Of a stretch of DNA of 42,581 nucleotides, positions 879 through 15,597 are shown piece by piece (within the stretch, counting starts at the first letter, position 1; the number at the start of each line of letters is the position of its first letter). The notes below the pieces were generated by a model, which had not been told where the DNA came from, searched no databases, and saw only the letters and a list, made by a program, of their open reading frames with translations. The stretch spans positions 1-42,581 of the forward strand of contig VBBQ01000035.1 of the NCBI GenBank assembly GCA_005888755.1, read 5' to 3'. This DNA is from Candidatus Bathyarchaeota archaeon. GTDB lineage: Archaea > Thermoproteota > Bathyarchaeia > 40CM-2-53-6. The position numbers and the translations under genes are program-made.

Positions 879-1053
879 GCCCAGGACATGTATGCCGGGC
901 TCGCGCCCTATTCCTGGAATATGGGAGTGCGTAGAGGTAGTATAGCCCGGTCCGCGGCTTGCGGGAGCCGGCCGAGAGTATGCACGGCTGTCACCCGTGC
1001 GACACTCGAGTAATTCGAGCGCGTTGCGGGTTCGAATCCCGCCCTGGGCGCCA
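879..1053 (+). tRNA. tRNA-Asp(GTC) with three non-canonical introns
   Basis: The 5' acceptor strand GCCCAGG (879-885) pairs perfectly with CCTGGGC (1043-1049); G73 is at 1050 and CCA is encoded at 1051-1053. The anticodon stem CACGG/CCGTG encloses loop CTGTCAC with anticodon GTC at 990-992. The T arm is GCGGG/TTCGAAT/CCCGC (1026-1042). Three insertions must be removed for a cloverleaf. One of about 52 nt (886-937) lies between position 7 and the D arm; its ends can slide 3 nt on a repeated AGG, and I could not find a clean BHB for it. One of 23 nt (954-976) is in the D loop: central helix CGGT/GCCG, 3-nt bulges. One of 22 nt (1004-1025) lies between the variable region and T stem: TGCG/CGCG helix, 3-nt bulges. 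The canonical 37/38 site is not interrupted. A TATA-like TTTAAG is about 28 nt upstream. Confidence 0.85.
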
Positions 1054-3273: not shown

Positions 3274-4590
3274 TTGTCAGAAGCACAATTCACTCTTCCA
3301 AGGGGAATGAAAGACATTGACCCCGAGGAAATGTCACGCAGGATCTGGCTAACTGACAAGATTCGACAAGAGCTCTGGAACTATGGGTTCCAGATGTTGG
3401 AGCCTAGCCCTGTAGAAAACCTGGAAACCCTCGAGGCAAAATCAGGCCCCGCAGTCAGAGACGAAATCTACTGGTTCAAGGACAAGGCAGAACGAAACCT
3501 CGGACTTCGATTCGACCTCACGGTAGGCATGACCAGGATGGTTGCAAACAGGTTCGACCTCCCAGAACCGATCAAGATCTCATGCATCGGTGGAGTATGG
3601 CGCTACGACGAGCCCCAGTTCGCCCGCTACCGATACCACACACAGTGGGACGCTGAAATCTACGGAGTCGCAGATCCATCGGCCGACGCAGAGATCATCG
3701 CACTAGGCTCCGACATTCTAGAGTCAGTCGGTCTCAAAGACCACTTGGTCAAGATTAGCAACAGAAAACTCGTTGAAGGCTTCCTGCGTGGCCTTGGAAT
3801 TCAGTCCCAAAATGATCTCGATCTCCTGATCAGGATAGTCGACAAATTAGGAAAAATCGGCTCCGAACAGGCAGAGCGAGAATTCACAAGAGCCGGCCTG
3901 TCCAAGGACAAGGTCAAGCGAATCCTAGGCTTCGCAGATATCGGTGGAGACCCGGACAAGGTCCTCGGAGAGCTAGAGAGCAAACTTCCCAAGGGCGAGA
4001 TGATCCACCAGGGTTTCAAAGAACTCTCTGGAACAGTCGACATGATAGAATCCCTCGGAAAAAAGGAGAAGATCAGGATCGACCTGGGAATAGTCCGGGG
4101 AATAAGCTACTACGATGGAACGGTGTTCGAGGCCTACGACCGAGACGGAGAAGACGTGGGCGCAATCTTTGGAGGCGGGCGTTTCGACAAGCTAAGCAAG
4201 ATCTACGGAAAACGCGACATGCCAGCAACGGGAGTCGCAGGAGGCTTCGAAAGACTCATGCTCTCCCTAGAGCGAAAGGATCTGTTCCCTGATATCCAGC
4301 AACACCCACAGGTGTTCGTGGTCACAGTCAACGAAACCGTCTGGAACGAAGCTGTGAAAACAGTACAACTACTCCGAAGCCAAGGCATCAGAACTGACTA
4401 CGATCTCAAACAACGTCCACTCGGCAAACAGTTCGAGTACGCTGACTCGTTGAAGGTAAGGGTATCTCTTGTCTTAGGGCCCAGAGAGATCAAGGAAGGA
4501 AGTGTCCGTCTGAAAAACATGAAAACAGGCGAAGAGAAGAGCGTCAAGCTATCATCTGTAGTGGATCAGACCCGAAAGGCCCTCCAATGA
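3274..4590 (+). CDS. hisS: histidyl-tRNA synthetase
   Basis: A 438-residue class II aminoacyl-tRNA synthetase starting at TTG. It begins with the family hallmark FTLPRGMKDIDP, contains motif 2 (WRYDEPQFARYRYHTQWDAE) with the HisRS-specific residues, the histidine-binding signature GIVRGISYYDG near residue 271, and motif 3 region GGGRFDKLSKIYG through VAGGFERL. The C-terminal 100 residues form the anticodon-binding domain (VFVVTVNE through REIKEGSVRLKN). It charges tRNA-His with histidine in the cytosol. The gene follows endA after 26 nt, suggesting cotranscription of a tRNA-splicing and a tRNA-charging gene. Confidence 0.95.
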   Translation: MSEAQFTLPRGMKDIDPEEMSRRIWLTDKIRQELWNYGFQMLEPSPVENLETLEAKSGPAVRDEIYWFKDKAERNLGLRFDLTVGMTRMVANRFDLPEPIKISCIGGVWRYDEPQFARYRYHTQWDAEIYGVADPSADAEIIALGSDILESVGLKDHLVKISNRKLVEGFLRGLGIQSQNDLDLLIRIVDKLGKIGSEQAEREFTRAGLSKDKVKRILGFADIGGDPDKVLGELESKLPKGEMIHQGFKELSGTVDMIESLGKKEKIRIDLGIVRGISYYDGTVFEAYDRDGEDVGAIFGGGRFDKLSKIYGKRDMPATGVAGGFERLMLSLERKDLFPDIQQHPQVFVVTVNETVWNEAVKTVQLLRSQGIRTDYDLKQRPLGKQFEYADSLKVRVSLVLGPREIKEGSVRLKNMKTGEEKSVKLSSVVDQTRKALQ

Positions 4591-5653: not shown

Positions 5654-5763
5654 GGGCCCGTAGCTCAGCCTGGATAGAGCGGCAGTCAATTCCTGGCCGA
5701 TCCCCCTATGCCTTGAGCGGGTTGAGCTGTAGGTCCGGGGTTCGAATCCCCGCGGGCCCGCCA
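5654..5763 (+). tRNA. tRNA-Arg(CCT) with two 16-nt introns and an apparent C33
   Basis: The acceptor GGGCCCG/CGGGCCC (5654-5660, 5753-5759) is perfect, with G73 at 5760 and encoded CCA. The D stem is GCTC/GAGC; the T arm is CGGGG/TTCGAAT/CCCCG. A cloverleaf needs removal of 5686-5701 (between 30 and 31; central helix CGGC/GCCG, bulges AGT and ATC) and of 5709-5724 (between 37 and 38; CCC/GGG helix with a C-T mismatch, bulges TAT and TGA). Both have the same design: a 2-bp inner stem and 5-nt loop. The spliced anticodon arm is GCAGC / CCCCTAA / GCTGT, giving anticodon CCT and A37. Position 33 is then C instead of the near-universal T. The Arg identity also fits the GGATAGAGC D arm. Confidence 0.85.
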
Positions 5764-6885: not shown

Positions 6886-7095
6886 TGGTCCCGGGGACCG
6901 GAGTCTCATAGAGGTTGCTACCTCTATTTTGAATTCGCCGAACCGGTTTTTCTGGTTCTCCGGCGACACTCCGGTGTCTACTGTTAGCCTGGTAAGGCTG
7001 ACGTGGCTGCGCACTGGGCGCACACCTACAGCGTCTTCGTCGCCCACTGTTCTAGGGGGCGGCTCGGAAGCTCTTCCAGGCTGAGCTACCCCGGG
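6886..7095 (-). tRNA. tRNA-Tyr(GTA) with four introns
   Basis: Read on the minus strand from 7095. Acceptor CCCGGGG/CCCCGGG gives C1-G72, with A73 (6889) and encoded CCA: the identity set of archaeal tRNA-Tyr. D stem GCTC/GAGC. Removing four insertions gives anticodon arm TCCGG / CTGTAGA / CCGGA, variable region GTGTC and T arm GCCGG / TTCAAAT / CCGGT. The introns are 7033-7064 (32 nt, 30/31; helix CTTC/GAAG), 6976-7025 (50 nt, 37/38; CTGT/GTAG with two G-U pairs), 6934-6959 (26 nt, 53/54; CGCC/GGCG) and 6903-6927 (25 nt, 59/60; TTCA/TGAG). Each has a 4-bp central helix and two 3-nt bulges, and cutting between the second and third bulge bases yields exactly this cloverleaf. The exons total 74 nt and the introns 133 nt. 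Confidence 0.9.
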
Positions 7096-15497: not shown

Positions 15498-15597
15498 CGG
15501 GCCCGGTGGGATTCGAACCCACGATTTTGGGCTCTCTTCGCACTGAAATGGATGGCTCCGAAGGCCCACGTCTTGGTCCTGGCTCGACTACGGGCCC
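15498..15597 (-). tRNA. tRNA-Arg(TCG) with one canonical intron
   Basis: On the minus strand the acceptor GGGCCCG pairs with CGGGCCC, with G73 at 15498; CCA is not encoded. D arm GTC/GAC, anticodon stem TGGGC/GCCCA, loop CTTCGGA with anticodon TCG, T arm GTGGG/TTCGAAT/CCCAC. A 24-nt intron (15534-15557) lies between positions 37 and 38 with a textbook BHB: central helix CTTC/GAAG, bulges GGA and AGA, outer helix equal to the anticodon stem. Confidence 0.93.

Follow-up and report, generated by a model that had tools for sequence, protein, structure and literature searches.

Archaeal tRNA genes are reviewed as containing up to three introns (PMC8450103, PMC4390854, PMC3400036). The closest known multi-intron genes include those of Thermoproteales, such as tRNA-Glu of Pyrobaculum calidifontis and tRNA-Pro of P. 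islandicum, each of which has three BHB introns distributed over canonical and non-canonical positions (PMC4390854, PMC8450103). In Atabeyarchaeia and Freyarchaeia (Asgard archaea of wetland soil), which belong to another phylum, most tRNA genes are likewise interrupted, many by several non-canonical introns, and soil genomes of this group have 228 introns in three genomes with several introns in over half of the genes (PMC11291895). The main text of that study gives no per-gene maximum, and from these numbers four-intron genes are possible there, though the text does not state them. Among eukaryotes, tRNA-Ile(UAU) of Cyanidioschyzon merolae also has several non-canonical introns in one gene, namely three, in the D, anticodon and T arms (PMC9602550).

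Whereas the genes of Thermoproteales have three introns at most, the gene described here has four and that of some relatives five, and it belongs to a soil archaeon of another class, Bathyarchaeia. An earlier reading of this DNA from its sequence alone (the sequence-only reading) had placed four introns at or beyond the reported limit, and the reviews do give three as the maximum; a literature search, which covered mainly the main texts of open-access papers, found no report of an archaeal tRNA gene with at least four introns. Set against the reviewed maximum of three, the count per gene thereby rises to four here and, in relatives, to five. The locus is interpreted as the working tRNA-Tyr(GTA) gene of this archaeon, present in one copy and carrying four BHB introns, which would be removed by a pathway of partly fixed order with a D-loop latch (probability about 0.88).

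Anatomy of the tRNA-Tyr gene

The window (the whole stretch of 42,581 nt that was analysed) is one contig of a 2.01-Mb MAG, 94.96% complete in 48 contigs. The HisRS encoded there shares 97% identity with that of 'Candidatus Bathyarchaeota archaeon BA_21' and 88-93% with those of several other soil Bathyarchaeota/Crenarchaeota MAGs. The tRNA-Tyr(GTA) gene occupies 207 nt of the minus strand, with its 5′ end at 7095 and tRNA position 73 at 6889; its parts are listed in Table 1. The predicted mature tRNA-Tyr, CCCGGGGTAGCTCAGCCTGGAAGAGCTTCCGGCTGTAGACCGGAGTGTCGCCGGTTCAAATCCGGTCCCCGGGA, forms a complete cloverleaf with anticodon GTA, C1-G72 and A73, which bears out the identity assigned in the sequence-only reading. 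The four introns of that reading, with the lengths and positions of Table 1, were found again by an independent parser, and their lengths, once re-derived, add up to the 133 of 207 nt that it had claimed.

Table 1. Coordinates of the tRNA-Tyr gene, of the two strands of the D-loop:intron 2 helix and of the endonuclease subunit encoded in the window
Feature	Position in window	Strand	Basis and remarks
Exon 1, tRNA positions 1-30	7065..7095	(-)	parser and ARAGORN on spliced form
Intron 1 at 30/31, 32 nt	7033..7064	(-)	parser, ARAGORN; BHB central helix CUUC/GAAG
Exon 2, positions 31-37, anticodon GTA	7026..7032	(-)	parser, ARAGORN
Intron 2 at canonical 37/38, 50 nt	6976..7025	(-)	parser, ARAGORN; in all parsed class tRNA-Tyr genes
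Exon 3, positions 38-53	6960..6975	(-)	parser, ARAGORN
Intron 3 at 53/54, 26 nt	6934..6959	(-)	parser, ARAGORN; BHB central helix CGCC/GGCG
Exon 4, positions 54-59 (T loop)	6928..6933	(-)	parser, ARAGORN
Intron 4 at 59/60, 25 nt	6903..6927	(-)	parser, ARAGORN; BHB central helix UUCA/UGAG
Exon 5, positions 60-73	6889..6902	(-)	parser, ARAGORN
Encoded 3′ CCA	6886..6888	(-)	sequence
D-loop strand AGCCTGG (positions 14-19) of D-loop:intron 2 helix	7076..7082	(-)	complementarity and covariation in relatives; predicted probability 0.98
Intron 2 strand CCAGGCT of D-loop:intron 2 helix	6986..6992	(-)	complementarity and covariation in relatives
Divergent (structural, beta-like) tRNA splicing endonuclease subunit, 176 aa	2717..3247	(+)	PF01974 and PF02778 above cut-off

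The parser, our own beam search, combines cloverleaf pairing, conserved positions and BHB introns, with a relaxed inner-helix rule. It returns the same four introns whether the anticodon is fixed to GTA or left free, and its score of 80.0 compares with a mean of 36.4 (sd 5.2, maximum 47.3) for 150 dinucleotide shuffles of the region; the four-intron structure is not the product of chance. Both marks of archaeal BHB-spliced tRNA introns are found, namely a cloverleaf upon intron removal and a BHB at each junction. ARAGORN, given each of the 16 intron subsets, recognized a tRNA-Tyr(GTA) free of introns in just one of them, the form lacking all four. The four-intron observation is confirmed; the gene is real and, by all sequence evidence available, appears functional.

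The unspliced gene is missed by ARAGORN and Rfam in the window and by RF00005 in the genome, and an Rfam E-value search of the region returns only noise. Standard tools partly miss tRNA genes of this soil lineage, and the tRNA sets of such genomes are therefore probably under-annotated. Three more tRNA genes lie in the window, at 957-1053 (+), called tRNA-Asp(gtc) and spanning 97 nt, at 5654-5760 (+), and at 15498-15597 (-), which parses as Arg(TCG) with one 37/38 intron.

Copy number and conservation in relatives

A second tRNA-Tyr gene was sought in the genome with both the precursor and the mature sequence, and above background only the gene itself and its exons were found; a further 30 candidate tRNA loci were parsed in the genome, and a GTA anticodon appears in none of them. 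A second intact tRNA-Tyr(GTA) gene, which the sequence-only reading had named as a finding that would overturn it, is not found in this 95% complete MAG. Among congeners (ten genomes, loci L031-L040, window included), the same four introns are present in all ten, and the mature tRNA-Tyr is identical in nine; the tenth, L038, differs only by a one-base parser shift of the 37/38 cut, and an alternative placement of that cut restores the same mature sequence. No exon column varies among the nine congeners, compared with 37 of 137 intron columns among the ten. It might be supposed that the gene is a decayed or unexpressed copy, with the working gene in the missing part of an assembly that is 95% complete and divided into 48 contigs. 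The invariance of the exon columns beside varying introns and the recurrence of one interrupted gene throughout the class make this extremely improbable, and argue for a functional gene.

The 85 parsed tRNA-Tyr genes of Bathyarchaeia have one intron in 4 cases, two in 26, three in 10, four in 38 and five in 7, proportions that are not an unbiased class census because the genes were collected by their similarity to the gene of the window; the three-intron count includes L191 and L192 (37/38 and 44/45), each of which probably has one mis-split 37/38 intron, and so two introns. Four introns are common in tRNA-Tyr of Bathyarchaeia and not unique to the window's gene. Across these 85 genes the mature tRNA is nearly constant and the introns occupy a fixed set of sites, each filled in some genes and empty in others, except for 37/38, which is filled in all. 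The five-intron genes make up one family, f3 (L048, L049, L132, L135, L137, L140, L144), with the extra intron at 9/10. In some members of the window's family an intron at 44/45 replaces that at 53/54, and L050 and L138 are without the 30/31 intron but have both 44/45 and 53/54. With intron numbers that range from one to five while the mature tRNA barely changes, the class offers a natural series for the study of intron gain and loss.

Introns at 72/73 (L045) and 40/41 (L135), and a 37/38 intron split in two (L137, L140, L144, L153, L197, L201, L209, L222), are parser artefacts and were excluded from these counts. The unparsed loci are L041 (which contains N), L134/L267, L136, L163 and L180; the gene of L136 does parse as L268.

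The acceptor 5′ strand CCCGCGG is duplicated in the leader, just upstream of some genes. A full 7-nt copy is present in eight of the nine genes with a 9/10 intron (L048, L049, L132, L137, L140, L143, L144, L170; that of L135 is partial) and in none of the 76 tRNA-Tyr genes without one. While the acceptor strand is engaged in the BHB of the 9/10 intron, the leader copy may take its place.

The tRNA-Phe(GAA) gene of the same genome (L026/L272, G000:C4:90839-91003) also has four introns, at 8/9, 18/19, 37/38 and 46/47. Four introns are found in tRNA-Phe(GAA) of G010, G017 and G011 as well, whereas that of congeners G005, G006 and G007 has identical exons and no 8/9 intron. Several other tRNAs of the genome parse with two or three introns, so the tRNA-Tyr gene is part of a generally intron-rich set.

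Splicing machinery and proposed order of splicing

The genome encodes both an endonuclease and an RtcB-type ligase (PF01139, E 5.1e-171), as expected for BHB splicing. Two PF01974 proteins were identified, a catalytic-type protein of 189 aa on contig C46 and the divergent 176-aa protein of the window (Table 1). The C46 subunit, whose best PDB relative is 3p1z (E 4.3e-42), retains, in the alignment, the segments that surround the catalytic Tyr, His and Lys (this His is mutated to Ala in chain 3ajv, near-identical to 3p1z), whereas the divergent subunit has no aligned His. Two unlike endonuclease subunits characterize the (alpha-beta)2 type, and judging by their sequences the catalytic and the structural subunit are both present here. 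The (alpha-beta)2 type has been reviewed as accompanying many non-canonical introns (PMC4090602). From the two genes, assembly into an (alpha-beta)2 heterotetramer may be predicted. The gene for the divergent subunit adjoins that for HisRS (3274-4590), approximately 3.6 kb from the four-intron tRNA gene.

In the proposed pathway, the two-subunit (alpha-beta)2 splicing endonuclease would make eight cuts in a transcript of approximately 207 nt, and RtcB would join the exons. The order of splicing is probably partly fixed, with the stem introns (30/31 and 53/54) leaving before the adjacent loop introns (37/38 and 59/60), because the outer exonic helix of each loop intron requires a repaired stem.

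The sequence-only reading had described a canonical BHB at each junction. All four central helices (for intron 2, CUGU/GUAG; for the others see Table 1) do consist of four standard pairs, but that of intron 2 is weak, with two G.U pairs, and the exonic outer helix is poor at introns 1 and 3, so the description was slightly generous. The two G.U pairs, together with the parser's shifting or splitting of the 37/38 intron in some relatives, could mean that splicing does occur but not at all of the assigned junctions, for example that the 37/38 intron has another 3′ cut or is two introns. However, the spliced cloverleaf is perfect, relatives that have anywhere from one to five introns share these junctions and the mature sequence, and any shift here would spoil the anticodon stem or loop; misplacement is accordingly considered very improbable, and the junctions of Table 1 are preferred.

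The suggestion in the sequence-only reading that splicing order may matter is supported by geometry. The outer helix of intron 4 is the T stem, which is contiguous only once intron 3 is gone, and that of intron 2 is the anticodon stem, mostly available only once intron 1 is gone. When the full precursor and partly spliced states were folded at 37 °C, the predicted probability of the T-stem outer helix of intron 4 rose from 0 to 0.77 upon removal of intron 3, but the central helix of intron 4 did not rise, so the predicted order is only partly supported. The BHB helix of intron 3 has a predicted probability of 0.85 in the full precursor and 1.00 after removal of intron 4, while those of introns 1 (0.20) and 4 (0.13) are weak in the predicted ensemble; the case for an order of splicing would be strongest for early cleavability of intron 3. 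For the central helix of intron 2 the predicted probability is close to zero in every state, its region being paired elsewhere. Its formation would need remodelling or a pseudoknot, a structure that the folding program cannot model.

Pairing between the D-loop and the canonical intron

The 37/38 intron contains a conserved block, CAGCCT-N-CC-A-R-GC, that is complementary to the D-loop, GCYTGGNAG. The helix has 9 bp in the class consensus, including two covarying pairs, and 7 bp in the window, with a predicted probability of 0.98 in the full precursor; on the D-loop side it comprises positions 14-19 in the window's tRNA and 15-22 in relatives. Such a 7-bp run, taken alone, has a chance of about 5% in a shuffled intron, so the evidence for the helix is comparative. 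None of the other parsed introns of the genome has a run of more than 6 with its own D-loop.

Scored over 72 distinct loci with G.U as half a pair, the nine-pair helix reaches a mean of 8.28, compared with 7.61 (sd 0.063, maximum 7.80) in 2000 rounds of intron swapping, and sliding by one to three columns lowers average pairing to 3.3 or less. Kinship of sequences can inflate pairing tests, yet the slid controls, which keep kinship, fall far below. D-loop positions 17 and 20 each share the most information with the predicted partner column (0.647, next 0.203, and 0.798, next 0.405, respectively). Among 39 distinct sequences, 95.2% of cells are paired versus 89.4% when shuffled, double-changed cells number 31 versus 12.2, and covariation is 0.332, values that none of 500 shuffles reach. 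The other two of the five measures, the number of pairs with double changes (2) and that of pair types, are no higher than in the shuffles, since both sides vary in only two of the nine pairs.

The block could instead be conserved as one side of a local hairpin (AGCCT-TACC-AGGCT), of which 5 bp can form in this genus, or as an element for some other partner; the CAG at its start is conserved though it lies outside the D-loop helix. In loci with T17 in the D-loop, however, the intron partner changes to A, but in 27 of 30 such cases the hairpin partner is still C, which leaves a C.A mismatch, and swapping introns among loci cuts pairing far outside the shuffles. This alternative is therefore judged unlikely, and a D-loop:intron helix is preferred.

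A conserved element with complementarity to the host tRNA is also found in the box C/D guide intron of archaeal pre-tRNA-Trp, which lies at 37/38 too (PMC11408192). By this precedent the 37/38 intron of tRNA-Tyr might be a guide RNA (box C/D or H/ACA) that modifies its own tRNA, but no C/D boxes are seen beside the block in the intron sequence, no Rfam guide-RNA match rises above noise, and the duplex with the D-loop is continuous, without the unpaired target that an H/ACA guide needs. A guide function is improbable, somewhat more so than a local hairpin.

In the preferred reading, the 37/38 intron would pair with the D-loop and thereby probably keep it off the T-loop until that intron leaves. 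This helix would make a pseudoknot with the BHB central helix of intron 2, so the two may alternate. In other families of the phylum, tRNA-Tyr genes with one to three introns contain the block as well, so it is probably older than the other introns; since the D-loop is almost invariant in those families, the covariation rests on Bathyarchaeia. A covarying helix suggests that the oldest tRNA-Tyr intron (37/38) has been kept for a reason. A literature search, which covered mainly open-access papers, found no report of pairing between D-loop and intron in an archaeal tRNA; as far as found, this conserved pairing is unreported and is the more novel part of the finding.

More tentatively, the helix might be a folding checkpoint throughout the Thermoproteota, a possibility to which we give less than even odds. 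By holding the D-loop (G15, G18, G19), the canonical 37/38 intron would put off both the L-shape and modification of the D-loop, for example to archaeosine at G15, until its own excision, and multi-intron precursors with broken T arms would thereby be spliced in order. The tRNA-Tyr genes of other families of the phylum (L224, L228, L235, L270, L271) parse with introns at further places, namely 15/16, 22/23 and 44/45.
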